From NCBI RefSeq assembly GCF_023231945.1, contig NZ_JAJLJH010000011.1, forward strand, positions 124,001 to 188,000: a stretch of DNA of 64,000 bases, read 5' to 3'. How positions within the stretch are numbered: the stretch's first letter is position 1; each line of letters begins with the position of its first letter. Source of the stretch: Scleromatobacter humisilvae. GTDB lineage: Bacteria > Pseudomonadota > Gammaproteobacteria > Burkholderiales > Burkholderiaceae_C. Positions 1 to 26,894 of this stretch are shown here, piece by piece. Both the position numbers and the translations under genes were made by a program. The notes beneath the pieces are model-generated. The model made no database searches. It was not told the DNA's origin and saw only the letters and a program-made list of their open reading frames with translations.

Positions 1-482
1 CCGTCGCCAGCAGCCCGGTCGTCTGGGGCGCGCCAGGCGACGTCGGCGCCGCCTCCGACGGCATCAGCTTCGTCGACCTCGGTGGCGCGGGGCGACCGCA
101 GATCAGCCAATGGGTGACGACCGTCGCCGACCAGGCCTATCGCCTGTCCTTCGACCTCGGAACGCCCTATCGGGAGCCGAACGATCCGGGCGTGAGCGTC
201 GCCGTCGGCGCCGGGCCGGGCCGCTTCGCCGAGTTCCACGCGGTCAACGAGTCGTTCGTGCAGGCGTACCGGCACATCGACTTCGATTTCATCGCGGGTG
301 GCGACCGCACGGACGTCGTCTTCGCCGAGTTCGGCATCGACGAGCACGTCGACCTGGACAACGTCTCGCTGGCGGCCTTCAGCGCCGCCGCCGTCCCGGA
401 ACCCGCGTCCTGGGCCCTGCTGGCGGCCGGCCTGCTCGGCATCCGCTTCGCGCGCCGCCGCGGGCGCGTCGCGGGCGCGTGA
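1..482 (+). CDS. PEP-CTERM sorted surface/exopolysaccharide-associated protein, 3' part
   Basis: The reading frame is open from base 3 and the true start lies before the window. The body contains a stretch (ISQWVTTVADQAYRLSFDLG) like the jelly-roll DUF642/choice-of-anchor domains often found in PEP-CTERM proteins. The C-terminus is a textbook PEP-CTERM signal: VPEP, then the hydrophobic segment ASWALLAAGLLGI, then an Arg-rich tail (FARRRGR). This signal is known to be recognised by exosortase (EpsH/XrtA) for transfer to the cell surface in exopolysaccharide-producing Gram-negative bacteria. No exosortase gene is in the window. The domain assignment of the truncated body is tentative; the sorting signal is clear. 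Confidence 0.85.
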   Translation, partial: VASSPVVWGAPGDVGAASDGISFVDLGGAGRPQISQWVTTVADQAYRLSFDLGTPYREPNDPGVSVAVGAGPGRFAEFHAVNESFVQAYRHIDFDFIAGGDRTDVVFAEFGIDEHVDLDNVSLAAFSAAAVPEPASWALLAAGLLGIRFARRRGRVAGA

Positions 483-2510: not shown

Positions 2511-5500
2511 TCACTTCCGCTTCGCGGCCCGGCCCGTCGCGGCGGGTTCCATCCGCTTGAGCAACTGCTGCACCGTCTGCGGCGACGCCTGCTGCGTGCC
2601 GCTGACGCACAGCGACCAGCCCGGCGAGTTGTCGATGATCTGCGACGACGACACCCCCGCCGACGACACGAAGTACGCCCGCGTCGCATCGCCCGCGACC
2701 CCGGTGGACGTCCACGTCGTCCACGGATTCGGGAACGCGCATTGCGCATAGTTGCTGTTGGCGATCGTCAACGCCTCGGTCTGCGTCGGCAGCCGCATCC
2801 CCACCGACGTGCAGTACTGCGCCGCGACCGGCTGCGTGAACTGCGCGCCCTGCGTCGGGAACGTGGTGACGTATTGCTGCCAGGTCAGCTTGGTGACGTT
2901 GTCGATGACCGTCGGCACGAACGGACCCGAGGGCAGCCCCGCGATCGTCGAGTTCCAGGTGCCCGGCTGCGCCGGCACCGTCGTGTAGCGCTCGCCGCTG
3001 CCGCCGCACTGCGGCACGTCGAACACCTGCATCTCGTAGAGCGAATAGCCGAACGTCGTCGCGCGCGCGGTGCCCAGCATGCGCACGTAGCGCGAGTTGG
3101 TGGTCGGGAAGTTGACCGTCTCCGTGCCGCCCTTGCCGGCGACGGTCTGGATCGTCGTCCACGCGTTGTTGTCGGGCGAGACCTGGATCTGGTACGCCGA
3201 CGCGTACGCGTTCTCCCAGGTCAGCACGACGCGGTCGAAGGCCTTGACGGAGCCCATGTCGGCGGCGATCCATGACGGGTCGACGCCTTGCGTGGATTCC
3301 CAGCGATTCGCCGTCGAGAGGTCGCCGTCGAACGCGTACTTCGCGAGGTTGCCGCCGTTCTGGCTGCTCGCCGACGGCGTCGCGTTGAGCGCGAGGTCGG
3401 GCCCGTTGCCGCCGCTGACGGTGACGACCGCGCCGCTGCTCGGCACCGAGCCGGAGCCGTTGCTCACCGTCACGGTGTAGGTGCCGGCATCGCTGGCCTG
3501 CGCAGCGGCGATGGTGAACGTCGACGAGTCCGTGCCGACGTTGGTCGAGCCATTGAGCTGCCACTGGTAGTGCAGCGGGCCGGAACCGGCGGCCACCACC
3601 GACAACGTCAACGACTGTCCGGCCGACACCGAGGCCCCCGCCGGCTGCGTGACGATGGCCGGCGCGGTGCCCGCGGTCACCGTCAGCCTGGCCGCGGTCG
3701 ACGTGACCGTGCCGGCGCTGTTGGTGACGACGACGTCCCAGGTGCTGCCGCTGTCGGCGGTCTGCAGCGTGGGCGTCGTGTACGTCGACGCGGTCGCGCC
3801 GGCAATGTTCGCGCCGTTCTTCCGCCATTGGTAGGTCAGCAGCGGCGAGCCGTTGGCGACGACGCTGAACTGCGCGCTGCCGCCCGCGGCCACCGTCTGC
3901 GCGGCGGGCGCGGTGGCGATGGTGGGCACGCTGGGCGCGACGACCGTCACGGTGGCGGCGGCCGAAGGCACGCTGGTCGCACCGCTCGTGACGACGACCG
4001 ACCAGCTGGCGCCGTTGTCGTCCGCGGTCAGCACCGGCGTCGTGTAGGCGAAGCCGGTCGCGCCCGCGATGGCGGTCGCGCCCTTCATCCACTGGAACGT
4101 CACCGGCGCGGTGCTCGTCGCCAGCACGCTGAACTGCGCCGACTGTCCCACCGTGACGACCTGGCTGGCCGGCGGCGTGACGATGGCCAGGGCGTTGGGC
4201 TGCGCCGCGACGTGGAGCTGCGCGCCGGTGGCCGTCGTACCGCTGGCTGCGACGACGTTGAACGTGGCCGAGCCGCTCTTCAAGCCGTTCGAGCTCGCGG
4301 TGACGGTGACCGTGCCCGGCGTGAACTGCGCGCGCACCGCGACCTTCGCGAGCCCGCCCTCGGCCGACAGGTTCGGGTCGCCCGGCGCGTGGTAGCCCTG
4401 CGGCAGGAAGTTGCCGGGCACGCCGTTGGCGTCGTCGCGCGGCGTCTGGCCCTGCGTGAACGTGACGTAGCTGTCGGTGCCGCCGCGATAGGTGCCGGGG
4501 CCGCTGACCGCGAACGTCAGGATGTTCTTCGCATCGGGGACGCGGTTGCCCGCGGCGTCGACGACGGTCGCGATGACGAAGGCCGCGTCGGTGCCGTTGG
4601 CGCTGACCTGGAAGGCCTGGCCGTTCGGGCGCACGATCGCCGGATCCACCGTCAGCACGATGTGGTCGGCCGGGCCGGCGGTGACCTGCGTGTCGGCCAC
4701 CGCGTTGCCCGCGGCGTCGGTGACCACGCGGCTGCTGGCGTCCAGGCACTGCGCGGTCAGCTTGCCCGCGGCCCAGCTGACGTTCCAGTGCGCCTGGCGC
4801 GGCAGCGAGACGGTGTTGGGGCCGGTGTCGTTGCCCGGATCCATGTTCTGCGGATTCGGGATCTGGTCGGCGCCCTGCGGCTGGTCGTTGATCAGCAGGC
4901 GCACCGACGGGCAGTTGCTGAACGCGTTGACGGTGACGTTGCCGGTGCGGTTCCAGTGGTACGCGAGATGCACCACCGGCTTGATCTCGAACGGCGTCCA
5001 CGCGGCCTGGTAGATCCAGTAGATCAGGCGCGGGAAGCGGTTGGCGTCCATCATCGACGCCGCATTGCCGCGCATCATGAAGGGCTGCGTGCCCGTCGTC
5101 GCGCCGAGCGCCGGCTGCGTGCCGGTGGCCACGCCGTAGGGCGGGCGATCGGGGCCGTCGACCTGGCTCGTGATCTCGCCGGGCGTATCGGCGAGGTACC
5201 AGTGCGCCATGCCGAAGACGTTCTGGCGCAGGCCCTTGGACCAGTTCTTGACCGGGTTCACCGCGAACAGCAGCTCGTAGTCGTAGAGCGCGCGCTGCAC
5301 GCCGTCGCCCCAGTATTCCGAGCCCCACGCGGGCGAGTTCGGGTACTGGCTCTTGACGCCGATGTCGCAGCCGTCGCCGCTGCAGCCGAGGATGTCGCCG
5401 TTGGCCGGGTTGGGCGTGCGGTCGCCCTGCGCGCGCGTGAGCACCGGATCCCAGATCCTCGACAACGCCTTGATGCTCTGCGCGAAGGACGTGTCGGTGC

Positions 5501-21826: not shown

Positions 21827-23848
21827 TCACTCCAACGTGAGCAGTTCGCCGCCTTCGCTGACCTGGTCACCCGGCGCGAACAGCAGTTCGGCCACGGTGC
21901 CGTCGCGTGGCGCGGCGATCGTGTGCTCCATTTTCATCGCTTCGAGTACCGCCAGCGGCTGTCCGGTCTTGATGGCGTCGCCGCGCTTGACGAGATAGGC
22001 GATGACCTTGCCGGGCATCGGCGCCGTGAGCCGGCCGGCTTCCTTGTGGCCTTCGCCCGCGTGCGCGAGCGTGTCGACCACCGTGGCCTGCGCGCTGCCC
22101 GCCTGCGAGAACACCGACACCTGCTCGCCGACCTGGTAGACGGTCAGCGCGAGACGGCGCGTGTCGGCCTGGGTGCCGAGGGTCACGTCGTAGCGATCGC
22201 CGCCCAGCGCGCGCGATTCGAACGCGAGCTCGACGTCGCCGGCCTTCAGCAGCGCGCCGCCGCCATGCTGCGAGGTCAGCAGAACCTCCAGCGACTCGCC
22301 TTGCCACTCGATGTCGAAGCGCTGCACCGACGTGCCGTGCATGCGCCAGCCGTCGCGGCGCGACCACGGATCGCTGCCCACCGACTGCTGCTGCAGCGCC
22401 TTCGCGCGCGCGGCCACGCCCGCGGCGACCACTTCCAGCGGCAGGCCGGTCTTGCCGAACAGGTTCTCGCGCTCGCGCTCGATCAGCGCCGTGTCGAGGT
22501 TCGCGCCCGCGAACGACGGCGTCTTCGCGACGCGGCGCAGGAAGCTCACGTTGTTGACGACGCCCGCGATGTGCGTGCCGGCCAGCGCGGCGTCGAGCCG
22601 CGCCAGCGCCTGTTCGCGATCCTCGCCCCAGACGATCAGCTTGGCGATCATCGAGTCGTAGTACGGCGTGATCGCGTCGCCTTCGTTGACGCCGGTATCG
22701 ACGCGCACCGGCGCCGGATCGTGGAAGCCCTCGCCGTCCTCGTTGCGGCGAAAGCCCACGTGCGCCGGCCACTTCAGCACCGACAGCGTGCCGGTGGCGG
22801 GCAGGAAGTTGGCCTCGGGGCTCTCGGCGCAGATGCGCGCCTCGATCGCGTGGCCGTGGATCTTCAGGTCGGCCTGCGTCGCCGGCAGCGGCTCGCCCGA
22901 GGCCACGCGCAGCTGCCACTCGACGAGATCGTGCCCGCTGATGGCCTCCGTCACCGGATGCTCCACCTGCAGCCGCGTGTTCATCTCCATGAAGTAGAAG
23001 CGGCCATCCTGCTCGCAGATGAATTCGACGGTGCCGGCGCCGACGTAGTTGACCGCGCGCGCGGCGGCCACGGCGGCCTCGCCCATCTCGCGGCGGCGTT
23101 CCTCCGTCATGCCCGGGGCCGGCGCTTCCTCCAGCACCTTCTGGTGGCGGCGCTGCACCGAGCAGTCGCGCTCGAACAGGTAGACGCCGTTGCCGTGCGT
23201 GTCGAAGAAGACCTGGATCTCGATGTGGCGCGGGCGTTGCACGTAGCGCTCGATCAGCACCGCGTCGTCGCCGAAGCTGTTGATCGCCTCGCGCTTGCAC
23301 GACGCCAACGCCGCGTCGAACTCGTCGCCCGCGTTGACGATGCGCATGCCCTTTCCGCCGCCGCCCGCGCTCGCCTTGATCAGCACCGGATAGCCGATGC
23401 GGTCGGCCTCGCGCTTGAGCAACGCGGGATCCTGGTCGCTCCCGTGATAGCCAGGCACCAGCCGCACGCCGGCCTTTTCCATCAGCTGCTTGGACTCCGC
23501 CTTCAGCCCCATCGCGCGGATCGCCGACGGTGGCGGGCCGATGAACGCGATACCCGCGTCGGCGCAGGCGTGCGCGAAGTCCTCGTTCTCGCTGAGGAAG
23601 CCGTAGCCCGGATGGATCGCCTGGGCGCCGGTGGCCTTGGCGGCCTCGATGATGCGTTCCCAGCGCAGGTAGCTGTCGCGCGGCGCGGCCTCGCCGATGC
23701 GCACGGCCTCGTCGCAGGCCGACACGTGGCGCGCGTTGGCGTCGGCGTCGGAATAGACGGCGACGCTCTTGACGCCGAGGCGCTTCGCGGTAGCCGCGAC
23801 GCGGCAGGCGATTTCACCGCGGTTGGCGATCAGGATCTTTTCAAACAT
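21827..23848 (-). CDS. liuD: methylcrotonyl-CoA carboxylase biotin-containing (alpha) subunit
   Basis: 673 residues. The biotin carboxylase domain (1 to about 450) has MFEKILIANRGEIACRV, the ATP-grasp Gly-rich loop KASAGGGGKGMRIV and MEMNTRLQVEHPVTE. A linker domain follows, then a C-terminal biotin carrier domain with LEAMKMEH; Lys639 is the biotinylation site. With LiuB it carboxylates 3-methylcrotonyl-CoA. The start at 23848 matches family N-termini. Upstream sits a partial copy of its own 5' end whose stop overlaps this start, and an 18-bp inverted repeat spans the start region (separate entries). A weak GGAG-like site lies partly in that stem. Confidence 0.95.
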   Translation of the reverse strand: MFEKILIANRGEIACRVAATAKRLGVKSVAVYSDADANARHVSACDEAVRIGEAAPRDSYLRWERIIEAAKATGAQAIHPGYGFLSENEDFAHACADAGIAFIGPPPSAIRAMGLKAESKQLMEKAGVRLVPGYHGSDQDPALLKREADRIGYPVLIKASAGGGGKGMRIVNAGDEFDAALASCKREAINSFGDDAVLIERYVQRPRHIEIQVFFDTHGNGVYLFERDCSVQRRHQKVLEEAPAPGMTEERRREMGEAAVAAARAVNYVGAGTVEFICEQDGRFYFMEMNTRLQVEHPVTEAISGHDLVEWQLRVASGEPLPATQADLKIHGHAIEARICAESPEANFLPATGTLSVLKWPAHVGFRRNEDGEGFHDPAPVRVDTGVNEGDAITPYYDSMIAKLIVWGEDREQALARLDAALAGTHIAGVVNNVSFLRRVAKTPSFAGANLDTALIERERENLFGKTGLPLEVVAAGVAARAKALQQQSVGSDPWSRRDGWRMHGTSVQRFDIEWQGESLEVLLTSQHGGGALLKAGDVELAFESRALGGDRYDVTLGTQADTRRLALTVYQVGEQVSVFSQAGSAQATVVDTLAHAGEGHKEAGRLTAPMPGKVIAYLVKRGDAIKTGQPLAVLEAMKMEHTIAAPRDGTVAELLFAPGDQVSEGGELLTLE

Positions 23849-23875
23849 GCTTGTTCTCCGCGGTGAAATCGCCTG
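23805..23875. repeat. 18-bp perfect inverted repeat around the liuD start codon
   Basis: The arms are 23805-23822 and 23858-23875. In the liuD mRNA, CAGGCGATTTCACCGCGG pairs fully with the reverse complement located at codons 10-15, leaving a 35-base loop that contains the AUG. The ribosome site lies at the edge of the stem, so initiation could be restrained unless ribosomes arrive from the leader ORF. Confidence 0.85.
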
Positions 23876-23960
23876 GGTGCGCTTCGCGCACGACGCGATT
23901 TGGCTTCGCCGCGCCAAGCGCTTCGCGCTCGTCGTCGCCGCGGTTGGCGATCAGGATCTT
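23817..23960. repeat. 23-bp perfect direct repeat at the liuD start (23817-23839 and 23938-23960)
   Basis: Both copies encode the residues KILIANRG on the minus strand and are identical over 23 bases. The flanking ten bases toward each ATG match at seven positions. They mark the ends of the duplicated segment. Confidence 0.9.
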
Positions 23961-23969
23961 GGTGAACAT
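23841..23969 (-). pseudogene. duplicated 5' fragment of liuD acting as a 42-codon leader ORF
   Basis: A well-placed GGAGACCCC precedes an ATG at 23969, and the frame begins MFTKILIANRG, nearly the same as the LiuD N-terminus. It then departs into unrelated codons (DDEREALGAAKPNRVV...) and stops at 23841, overlapping the liuD ATG as ATGTTTGA. It may be a relic of the original liuD start, later displaced by an insertion or fold-back duplication. Ribosomes finishing it could restart on liuD. Confidence 0.7.
23877..23929. repeat. three consecutive short hairpins with TTC loops inside the leader
   Basis: GTGCGC-TTC-GCGCAC (23877-23891), GGC-TTC-GCC (23902-23910, nested in TTGGC/GCCAA at 23900-23917) and AGCGC-TTC-GCGCT (23917-23929) follow each other without real spacing. 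They fill the part of the leader unlike liuD, and look like a small palindromic repeat element. Confidence 0.6.
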
Positions 23970-23999
23970 GGGGTCTCCAGCTTCGAATTCTTCGGACGC

Positions 24000-24779
24000 T
24001 CAGCGCCAGGACGGGTCGCGCTTGTTCAGGAAGGCCTGCACGCCCTCCTTGCCTTCGGCGCTGGCGCGGATGTCGGCGATACGCCTGGCCGTATCGGCAC
24101 GCAGCGTGTCGTCGATCGCGCGGCCGGCCACGTCCTGCACCAGCTTCTTGCACGCGCGCACGGCCGCCGGGCCGTTGGCCACGAGCCCGGCGACAAGCTC
24201 GTCGACCTTGGCGTCCAGCGCATCGGCGGCCACGACCTCGTGCACGAAGCCCAGCGCATGCGCGCGGGCGGCGTCGAAGCGTTCGGCCGTCGTGAAGTAG
24301 CGGCGCGAGGCCTGCTCGCCGAGCGCCTTGACGACGTACGGCCCGATCGTCGCGGGCAGCAGCCCCAGCTTGGCCTCGCTGAGGCAGAAGTTGGTGCCTT
24401 CGACGGCGACCAGGATGTCGCACACCGCGGCCAGGCCCACGCCGCCGGCGTAGCAGTCGCCGTGGATGCGTCCGATGACCGGCACCGGGCAGGACCAGAT
24501 CGCGAAGAGCATGTCCGCCAGGCCCTGCGCGTCGGCGCGGTTCTGCTCCCACGTGTAGTCGGCCATCGCGCGCATCCACGACAGGTCCGCGCCGGCGCAG
24601 AACGCCTTGCCGTGGCCGCCGAGCACGACCGCGCGCAGCGTGTCGTCCGCCGCGAAGCCTGTGAAGGCGGCGGTGAGTTCCGCGATGACGCCGTCGTTGA
24701 ACGCGTTGCGCACGTCGGGGCGGTTGAGGAACACGCGCGCGACGGGGCCGTCGCGCGAGATCAGCAGGGTGTCGGTCAT
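24000..24779 (-). CDS. liuC: methylglutaconyl-CoA hydratase (enoyl-CoA hydratase family)
   Basis: 259 residues of the crotonase fold. FLNRPDVRNAFND, then GGHGKAFCAGADLSWM provides the first oxyanion-hole segment, and IHGDCYAGGVGLAAVCDILVA the second. CLSEAKLGLLPATIGPYVV carries the conserved Glu. Its place between the two methylcrotonyl-CoA carboxylase genes makes hydration of 3-methylglutaconyl-CoA to HMG-CoA the likely role. ATG 24779 is chosen on family length. A 28-base gap separates it from the upstream secreted paralogue. Confidence 0.93.
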   Translation of the reverse strand: MTDTLLISRDGPVARVFLNRPDVRNAFNDGVIAELTAAFTGFAADDTLRAVVLGGHGKAFCAGADLSWMRAMADYTWEQNRADAQGLADMLFAIWSCPVPVIGRIHGDCYAGGVGLAAVCDILVAVEGTNFCLSEAKLGLLPATIGPYVVKALGEQASRRYFTTAERFDAARAHALGFVHEVVAADALDAKVDELVAGLVANGPAAVRACKKLVQDVAGRAIDDTLRADTARRIADIRASAEGKEGVQAFLNKRDPSWR

Positions 24780-24807: not shown

Positions 24808-25443
24808 TCAGTTGGGCGCCGGCGCGGGCGCCGGCGGCAGGGGTTGGAACGTGGGCGCGGGCGGCGGCGGCGCATAGTCGGGCGCCGGCGCGATCGGAAT
24901 CGGGGCGGGCGGCGGCGAGATCACGGGCACGGCACTGGGCGGGGTCGGCATGGTCGCGAGCTGCGCACGCAACGTGACCGCAGCCTTGAGCGCGCCGACA
25001 TGGCACTCGAAGTGATCCGGGTCGTCGAACACCGAGCCTTCGTAGTTGGAGATCACGCCGACGATGGCCGTCGCGCGCACGCCGCGCGCGGCGAACGCGA
25101 GCTGCGTGACCGCGTCCTCGAACGCGCGGGCGCACAGCTCGTGGTCGCGCGGGCGCACGCGGTCGTCCTCGCCGACGTCGTCCAGCTTGGTCGTTCCCAC
25201 GCCCTTGACGACGACGTCGCGGCGCACCACGGTGGCGCCGCGGCCGCTGTCGCCACCGAAGCGCATCTCGAGGTTGCCGAGGATGTCGTGCACGCGCGTG
25301 ATGCGCACCGTGTCGGGCACCGACTCCATCAGGCGGACATTGCGCGCCTGGGCGGACGGCGGCAATGCGGCGAGCGCGGCGGCGGCGAAGGCGGCCGCGA
25401 CGGCGGTGCGGCGGTGAGACGGTTGGCGTTGAGCGGTGTTCAT
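24808..25443 (-). CDS. secreted small protein, 'excinuclease ATPase subunit'-like family, paralogue 1 with Pro-rich tail
   Basis: 211 residues with a Sec signal (AVAAAFAAAALAALPPSAQA, cleavage before RNVRLM). The core shows LCARAFEDAVTQLAFAARG, then VVGVISNYEGS and FECHVGALKAAVTLRAQLA. These match a family of small periplasmic proteins widely mislabelled as excinuclease ATPase subunits; nothing here resembles an ATPase. The last ~45 residues are almost only Pro/Ala. AAGG precedes ATG 25443. It is the third of three consecutive paralogues inside the liu operon. Confidence 0.8.
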   Translation of the reverse strand: MNTAQRQPSHRRTAVAAAFAAAALAALPPSAQARNVRLMESVPDTVRITRVHDILGNLEMRFGGDSGRGATVVRRDVVVKGVGTTKLDDVGEDDRVRPRDHELCARAFEDAVTQLAFAARGVRATAIVGVISNYEGSVFDDPDHFECHVGALKAAVTLRAQLATMPTPPSAVPVISPPPAPIPIAPAPDYAPPPPAPTFQPLPPAPAPAPN

Positions 25444-25534
25444 GGACCTTGCCTTTCTGCAGATTCGGCCACGACGGCAGCCGGACAGCCCGACAGGGCA
25501 AACCTCCTGCCGGCACCGTCGGGCACGCCGGCGC

Positions 25535-26341
25535 TCATTGATGCTCATCCTTGGGCGACACCGCCGCCGCCATGCCGCGCAGCTGCGCCACGCTGGCGAT
25601 GCGCCGGCTCTCGTCGGCGTTCCAGACCACGTTGTCGTCGACCGCATACAGCCAGCAGCGCTTGCCCAGGCGCGCGCACTCGGCGAAGACCTTGGTCGCG
25701 GCTTCGGGATCGTCGGCCCAGAAACGCCAGCTGCCGTCCTCGAGGAAGGCGAACGCGCGCGGCTTGGGCAGCGTCAGGAAGTGCGCGTAGCGGTCCTTGC
25801 CGGCGGCGGTGGACGGCACCGCATCGAGGTTCGTGAGTTCGGCATAGCCCGACTTCGCGGGCACCGGCACCGGCAACGCCTGCGGCAGCGCTCGCGCGAG
25901 CTGCGCCCGCAGCGCGACGTACGAGCGGAAGCTGCCGGCGTGGCATTCGTAGGTGGCCGCGTCGTCGCGCACCTGGGCCCTGTAGTCCCACACGATGCCC
26001 ACGGCCGCCGCCGCGTTGCTGCGTTGCGCCGCGGCGACCAGTCGCGCCATCGCGTCCGCGAAGGCCTTCTGGCAGACCGACTCGTCGCTGGGCGGCTGGC
26101 TGTCGCGTTGATTGGCGTTCTCGCGCAAGGGCTCCGCGCTGCCGTCGATCTGGACGTCGCGTGCGACGAGTTCGGCGTCCGTCGCCGACGCCGCGCCGAA
26201 GCGCAACGGCAGCGCGCCGACGATGCGCTGCGTGGCCGGGTCGGACAGCGCGGCGGCGATCGGCAGGTGCAGCACGGTGTCGCGCGCCGAGGCCGTCGCC
26301 GCCACGAGCGCCAGCGCTAAGAAGGAGATCGCCTTGATCAT
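25535..26341 (-). CDS. secreted small protein, same family, paralogue 2 with extra C-terminal domain
   Basis: 268 residues. Signal peptide MIKAISFLALALVAATASA, then the shared core VCQKAFADAMARLVAAAQR, VGIVWDYRAQVRD and YECHAGSFRSYVALRAQLA. A further ~100 residues (YAHFLTLPKPRAFAFLEDGSW, CARLGKRCWLYAVDDNVVW) form an added domain that I do not recognise. Its start overlaps the stop of paralogue 3 (ATGA at 26338-26341). Function unknown. Confidence 0.8.
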   Translation of the reverse strand: MIKAISFLALALVAATASARDTVLHLPIAAALSDPATQRIVGALPLRFGAASATDAELVARDVQIDGSAEPLRENANQRDSQPPSDESVCQKAFADAMARLVAAAQRSNAAAAVGIVWDYRAQVRDDAATYECHAGSFRSYVALRAQLARALPQALPVPVPAKSGYAELTNLDAVPSTAAGKDRYAHFLTLPKPRAFAFLEDGSWRFWADDPEAATKVFAECARLGKRCWLYAVDDNVVWNADESRRIASVAQLRGMAAAVSPKDEHQ

Positions 26342-26838
26342 CGGGCCGTCCCCTCCAGCGACTTCACGAGCTGCGCCCGCAGGAAGACGTGGGACCAGGC
26401 GACCCCCGCATGGCATTCGAAGGTCTTGCCGTCGTCGATCGCGGTGCTCCCCTTGTAGGCGGACACGACGCCCACGACCGCGCCCGCGTGCGCATCGCGC
26501 GCGGCGTCCACGAGCTTGGCCAGCGCGCTCTTGAACGCATGGTTGCAGACCGCCTCGTCGCTGAGCGTCTCGTGCTTGCGCGGATCGTCGCCGGTGGCCG
26601 AGCCGCTGCCCTCCACGATGAAGGGCGTCCCGATCAACTCGGGCGCGCCGGCCTGCGGCGCGGTCGCCACGCCCCAGAGAATCGGCAGGTCGCCGACGAC
26701 CTCGCGTGAATAGCTCTTGTGCAGCGCGGCGGCGACGGGCTGCATGAAGGTTTCGTTGCGCGCCTGCGCGAACGATGCCAGGACAAGGGCGGACAGGCCG
26801 ACGAGCGTCGCGCGGACGAGGGAAGCAGGCTGGTTCAT
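26338..26838 (-). CDS. secreted small protein, same family, paralogue 3 (shortest form)
   Basis: 166 residues: signal peptide (LVGLSALVLASFAQA), an early segment ETFMQPVAAALHKSYSREVV, then the core VCNHAFKSALAKLVDAARD, VVGVVSAYKGS and FECHAGVAWSHVFLRAQLV. Two cysteines in the core (VCNHAF and FECHAG) recur in all three paralogues and could form a disulfide in the periplasm. It begins 56 bases after the liuB stop, and so is the first of the inserted trio. Confidence 0.82.
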   Translation of the reverse strand: MNQPASLVRATLVGLSALVLASFAQARNETFMQPVAAALHKSYSREVVGDLPILWGVATAPQAGAPELIGTPFIVEGSGSATGDDPRKHETLSDEAVCNHAFKSALAKLVDAARDAHAGAVVGVVSAYKGSTAIDDGKTFECHAGVAWSHVFLRAQLVKSLEGTAR

Positions 26839-26894
26839 CGAACGATGCGGGAAGTTGGAGAACAGGCGGCCCGATGGCTCGCCCGGCAGGGACA

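Follow-up and report, generated by a model that had tools for sequence, protein, structure and literature searches.

The window, a stretch of 64,000 nucleotides from Scleromatobacter humisilvae, contains the junction of two genes on the minus strand, which also carries all features described below. The end of liuC is located at 24000 and the start of liuD at 23848, the latter encoding a biotin carboxylase subunit of 673 residues (21827–23848, ATG at 23848–23846), whose name was adopted from a first-pass annotation and is backed by similarity to other carboxylase loci. Between both genes resides a second copy of the liuD start. Comparison of the repeats defines an upstream copy 1 (23935–23970), which encodes MFTKILIANRG and is preceded by its own Shine-Dalgarno-like GGAGA site (23974–23978), and a copy 2 (23814–23849), which encodes MFEKILIANRG and opens the intact liuD frame. 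The two belong to a 36-nt repeat (86%, spacing 121 nt) that includes an exact direct repeat of 23 nt (23817–23839 and 23938–23960), as the first-pass annotation had correctly located. The perfect inverted repeat of 18 nt that it had described around the liuD ATG is equally borne out (23805–23822 and 23858–23875), with 35 nt between the arms, which enclose the start of the gene. Copy 1 opens a leader of 42 codons (23841–23969, ATG at 23969–23967; MFTKILIANRGDDEREALGAAKPNRVVREAHPGDFTAENKHV), a length that agrees with the earlier description. In contrast to this description, the leader stop does not touch the liuD ATG: the TGA (23843–23841) instead coincides with bases 6–8 of liuD, so that 8 nt are shared by both frames.

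The inverted repeat corresponds to a stem, P4, which connects both frames. Its left arm (23858–23875) is contained in the leader and includes at its 3' end the GG of the GGAG (23856–23859) that constitutes the Shine-Dalgarno-like site of liuD, and its right arm (23805–23822) consists of the liuD codons RGEIAC. The spacer upstream of the left arm harbors three hairpins, which are evident in the sequence and whose helices covary among related elements. These are P1 (23917–23929, AGCGC-GAA-GCGCT), for which covariation was found in our alignments A3 and A4, P2 (23902–23910, GGC-GAA-GCC) and P3 (23877–23891, GTGCGC-GAA-GCGCAC), the region of the latter being paired differently in the fold of the single sequence. 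When folded as RNA, a segment of 196 nt reaches -85 kcal/mol (z -4.4), an energy that was not attained by any of 200 shuffled sequences, with all 18 pairs of P4 formed, compared to a z of +0.18 for a control of 91 nt that surround the start of liuD in a congener (G001).

A comparison of the liuC-liuD junction in close relatives, as proposed in the first-pass annotation, has revealed that liuD of three congeners contains a single start, MFTK or MFNK followed by ILIANRGEIACRV, and no insert. Since copy 1 of the window matches the MFTK starts of congeners (G001 and G003), we regard it as the ancestral type. A similar unit is found in G003 in another gene, accC. As a separate observation on the same gene neighborhood, three adjacent open reading frames in the liu cluster of the window (24808–25516, 25535–26416 and about 26338–26870, minus strand) encode proteins that appear alike by eye, and the end of a protein similar to these is located just upstream of liuD in G001 (L006).

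The arrangement is not confined to the window. The same architecture is seen in at least six (L040, L042, L043, L051, L065 and L066) of 80 carboxylase loci that come from named genomes, with a common layout of three hairpins, the left arm and mostly a Shine-Dalgarno-like site followed by the gene. A covariance model, R1, which was built from 15 spacers and which matches the window at 23859–23934 (spacer with P1–P3 and left arm; 75.3 bits, E 4.4e-18), has identified 80 matches in a sample of the family at E<=1e-5, distributed over 64 of 299 genomes and 47 of 141 genera. Except for one (L231, 33.3 bits), all of them directly precede the start copy of a biotin carboxylase or, in tandem arrays, the next copy, and are thus not dispersed at unrelated sites as would be characteristic of a MITE. 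Some of the weaker matches, of which a part was inspected, are not at carboxylases (L155, L233–L236). The unit also extends to other families of the Burkholderiales, with R1 matches in 25 of 399 genomes and 18 of 159 genera of an order sample (E<=1e-6), three of the 25 being genomes of the family itself, and the 24 loci inspected, which do not include the second tandem unit L262, are all at carboxylase starts. At the same threshold, a class sample of 274 genomes from 222 genera contained a match in G000 only. At the thresholds of the genome searches, R1 misses divergent units, as illustrated by G003, which was not retrieved although its accC unit (L014) scores 34.1 bits at the level of the locus. 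The genes preceded by the unit include accC (EIALRIQRAC), liuD and pccA-like genes (EIACRV) and a further type (MFDTLLIANRGEIACRIART), with labels assigned from motif and position. When a total of 1.664 Mb was scanned de novo, comprising the window, 800 kb of G000 and another 800 kb of G258, 24 repeat pairs emerged, two of them with a leader ending at a gene start and both at carboxylases. We have thus abandoned the idea of a general class that would also operate at other genes, since no non-carboxylase gene with this architecture was found in the scanned sequence. At one locus in Ideonella (L041), GGCGATCGAGCCGCGGGAG precedes a carboxylase start just upstream of a match at 3001, with no start copy seen within 40 nt, and it may represent a decayed unit.

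The conservation of the leader frame was analyzed for 103 distinct gene starts with a unit, where tandem arrays are represented only by the unit adjacent to the gene. Near-copies are contained in this set, and thinning to 94 has left the picture unchanged. In 102 of the 103 elements, the frame opened by copy 1 reaches a stop between -22 and +16 nt from the gene start, the exception being L153, where leader and gene are joined into one frame. The leader of L208 is broken as well when judged by its real start codon. The spacing of the two copies equals 1 mod 3 in 78 elements, and 24 of the other 25 use another stop within the same range. When only the spacer is considered, the leader frame is not closed early in any of the 103 elements, compared to 37 closures in frame +1 and 6 in frame +2, and to a mean of 31 upon shuffling of the spacers, which in 300 rounds never fell below 20. 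The contrast between frames increases to 0, 86 and 32 closed elements (frames 0, +1 and +2) if the start copy is included, but the 86 closures are largely trivial because a TGA in frame +1 is already contained in the start copy, and upon restriction to the spacer, frame +2 is nearly as open as the leader frame.

What appears to be kept is the open frame rather than the peptide, since in L213 a frame change in copy 1 has generated an unrelated sequence that still reaches the same overlapping stop (CATGTTTAA), and since copies 1 and 2 differ within seven conserved residues in 27 of the 103 elements. A visual inspection of a set of leaders has not revealed any run of regulatory codons as known from amino-acid attenuators, and the peptide of L213 is wholly changed. 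In the 1-mod-3 class, a TTT as the second codon of the gene can provide the stop of the leader, and the TTT:TTC ratio at this codon is 64:13, compared to 6:17 in the remainder (Fisher 7e-7). This association amounts to about 5:0.5 of 11 independent pairs on the tree, which is not significant (p 0.125). A GGAG, GAGG or AGGA motif 4–16 nt upstream of the start is found for copy 2 in 84 and for copy 1 in 55 of the 103 elements. The lower number of canonical Shine-Dalgarno motifs at the leader would fit a weak entry site, but also allows for direct initiation at the gene.

Evidence for the selection of P4 comes from the silent positions of its right arm. We have analyzed the third bases of five gene codons in 94 of the 103 elements, which amounts to 470 cells, leaving aside seven elements with a shifted middle (L154, L216, L217, L220, L221, L227 and L230), one where the arm was wrongly picked (L249) and one that pairs poorly (L257, 10 of 18). 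Watson-Crick pairs are formed in 413 of these cells, compared to a mean of 298 and a maximum of 319 in 2000 permutations. The remaining 57 comprise 22 G-U pairs, 2 A-C pairs and 33 others, where permutation yields 58 G-U and 36 A-C pairs, and over all 18 positions of the stem the corresponding numbers are 47, 15 and 187. Since an RNA of this strand should favor G-U over A-C, whereas a DNA palindrome should not, P4 is best described as an RNA stem, and the observed asymmetry also disfavors the correction of DNA hairpins as a source of its covariation. At positions that distinguish the two start copies, the arm is complementary to the copy in the gene 51 times, to the copy in the leader 4 times and to neither of them 12 times, which also disfavors an alternative in which the closing stem is formed by copy 1 with the left arm. 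Because the 18-mer was chosen to fit its own gene, a stricter test, where the arm was chosen anew for each swap between elements, was carried out and gave 14.93 matches for the own gene compared to 13.29 for swapped ones, with a maximum of 13.57 in 300 rounds. On a tree that leaves out L153, L223 and L208, independent pairs support compensation at the Gly codon by about 10:0 of 14 (p 0.002), or 8:0 of 10 with a second coding (p 0.008), and those for Glu (5:0 of 11, p 0.06) and Arg (5:1 of 9, p 0.22) point in the same direction without being significant on their own. The wobble differences between the 24 nearest pairs of elements include 3 that are fully compensated, 10 that turn a Watson-Crick into a G-U pair, 3 that are mismatched and 5 others.

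The hairpins of the spacer also carry the signature of conserved pairing. Two-sided changes in P1–P3 were counted 37 times compared to 9.9 in shuffled controls, in an alignment that was not fitted to the structure, and 284 times compared to 57.9 in the larger alignment A4, which was fitted to the same structure that was counted on it. The preference of G-U over A-C is weaker than in P4 (35 compared to 18), and there may be a DNA contribution to the covariation of these helices. The element thus contains covarying helices as expected of a structured cis-regulatory RNA, with control for phylogeny in case of one P4 codon, and pairing that is specific for the strand in P4 and less so in P1–P3.

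In several genomes, two or three units are arranged head to tail before the gene (G097, L151; G052, L199; G616, L241; G845, L259; G064, L216). There are two units of 108 nt before accC in G224 (L154), three in G089 (L162) and, by eye, about four before the carboxylase of G274 (L153, around 1400–1800). The last leader of this latter array continues into the gene without a change of frame (spacing 132), which makes a leader-carboxylase fusion protein possible. A naturally broken leader is encountered in G068 (L208, element at 326–391, minus strand), where a change of one nucleotide closes the frame early. Within the family, a group of accC genes shares a distinct arm, GATTGAGCCGAG (L201, L203, L206, L209, L210, L212, L215 and L226). 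In this subclass, pairing free of mismatches is limited to the outer 9–10 bp of P4, and the TGA of the leader is found 12–16 nt before the ATG.

On a tree of 192 carboxylases (FastTree), the presence of the unit changes 33 times, at least 19 of which are forced by well-supported branches, although the total is somewhat too high since four rows scored as lacking the unit are mislabeled, with two carriers missed by the repeat finder (L213 and L238) and two being duplicates (L207 and L252). From this patchy distribution it follows that the device is dispensable. The start copy must derive from some duplication. Direct repeats and recombination between the copies would allow both the clean loss and the tandem gain of units, and gene conversion between paralogues could provide a route for their spreading.

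We consider it likely, judging from these sequence comparisons, that the element acts in cis as a translational leader and is specific for the genes of biotin carboxylases. It would be maintained by selection, coupled to the downstream frame and equipped with an RNA stem over the start. The patchy occurrence within the gene tree, the tandem units with their start copy, the presence in several carboxylase paralogues, the palindromic hairpins with GNA loops and the weak preference for G-U in P1–P3 (35 compared to 18) would also suit an insertion unit at the level of DNA, MITE-like or spread by recombination, that duplicates carboxylase starts and is tolerated by virtue of reinitiation. Such an explanation is nevertheless improbable, since only one of the 80 family matches at E<=1e-5 is located off a carboxylase start and the scanned 1.664 Mb contain none elsewhere, and since a tolerated insert would not be expected to have an arm that tracks silent codon changes with a G-U:A-C ratio of 22:2.

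The first-pass annotation had left the choice between the relic of a replication template-switch and a translational device, and the open frame, the placement of the stop and the covarying stem now argue for the device. A fold-back event in one genome would readily account for the coincidence of a direct and an inverted repeat at one place and for the absence of the unit from liuD in three congeners, yet the same hairpins and architecture recur in other families of the order and, within the family sample, in 47 of 141 genera. The recurrence of a spacer with three covarying hairpins across families excludes a local event that occurred only once, and we regard this part of the earlier proposal as very unlikely, whereas a template-switch at the deep origin of the unit is possible. 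Comparably slim are the chances that the leader peptide functions in its own right, as a microprotein similar to the N-terminus of the carboxylase. This would explain why its frame is kept open, but it conflicts with the 27 of 103 elements where the copies differ within the seven conserved residues, with the wholly different peptide encoded by the open frame of L213 and with a length that varies with the hairpins. An artefact of assembly at the liuC-liuD junction, which had been raised as a concern and which might be suspected in an assembly of 28 contigs, has a negligible probability given the same architecture at more than 100 other places and in many independent assemblies, including one consisting of a single contig (G258) and one of two (G063).

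Taken together, a translational leader of this type would operate in the following way. The first approximately 11 codons of the gene including its start codon are repeated upstream, and the resulting frame runs through P1–P3 and the left arm of P4. By pairing over the start, P4 would hinder direct loading of the 30S subunit at the Shine-Dalgarno site and start codon of the gene. A ribosome translating the leader would open the left arm and terminate on the gene start, where either the terminating ribosome or a freshly loaded 30S subunit could then start the synthesis of the carboxylase. It would thus be the act of leader translation that matters, the peptide itself being probably irrelevant. 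As the first-pass annotation had suggested, the synthesis of liuD might be restricted to ribosomes that come from the leader, which could influence the stoichiometry of the alpha and beta subunits of the carboxylase. The ribosome on the leader would have to pass P1–P3, and these hairpins may control its speed or provide the binding site of a factor, and the start copy would be the mark of the origin of the unit by duplication of the gene start. Going further, the elements might constitute a class of regulatory RNAs dedicated to biotin carboxylases, where P1–P3 recognize either the carboxylase or a metabolite or factor of biotin-dependent carboxylation and determine whether ribosomes of the leader arrive at P4 and open it. 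This class would spread by start copying into paralogues such as accC, pccA-like genes and liuD, a proposal that we put forward as tentative and doubtful.

Stems that hide an initiation site are familiar from the coat-lysis region of RNA phages, from L10-L12 and from the internal complementary sequence of gnd, and in the coupled cases it is the translating ribosome that opens the stem. P4 is likewise placed over an initiation site, but we know of no duplicated gene start and no conserved multi-hairpin spacer across paralogues in these systems. A comparison of six loci (L001, L051, L043, L117, L122 and L132) to Rfam 15 has not revealed a match at any element, and the only two matches up to an E of 1, both in L051, are more than 3 kb from the element and below the gathering score. 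A search of the open-access literature, a scope outside of which most subscription papers fall, has equally found no description of the element. The translation of iraD in E. coli is coupled to a short upstream ORF (PMC5574718), an arrangement that the carboxylases would share. The carboxylase leader differs as a copy of the start of its own gene, by a stem whose right arm is coding sequence, and in its recurrence in several paralogous genes and in tandem. A statistical sign of coupling just upstream of biotin carboxylase genes was listed in a survey from 2013, where the GeneTack cluster 697472870 'Biotin carboxylase' contains 128 fs-genes from 44 genera with a +1 shift (PMC3711429, Table 2). 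The ATG of ORF2 is within 10 nt of the ORF1 stop in 75% of cases, and the cluster was classed as translational coupling, but the section concerned names no leader, duplication or RNA structure, and the cluster may reflect junctions of the accB-accC type instead (PMC3711429). A coupled leader ORF combined with a start-site stem is thus of a known kind, and the new features are the self-copied start, the specificity for carboxylases and the conserved spacer of hairpins.

The element matters for annotation because the upstream start copy invites the assignment of wrong gene starts. It would also illustrate a route towards a regulatory leader, where the start of a gene is duplicated, one copy turns into the leader and the codons of the gene provide half of a stem. 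If our interpretation is correct, the element represents an undescribed translational control of biotin carboxylases, enzymes that stand at the entry of fatty-acid synthesis and act in the breakdown of acyl-CoA, which would extend across a large bacterial order and several paralogous families.
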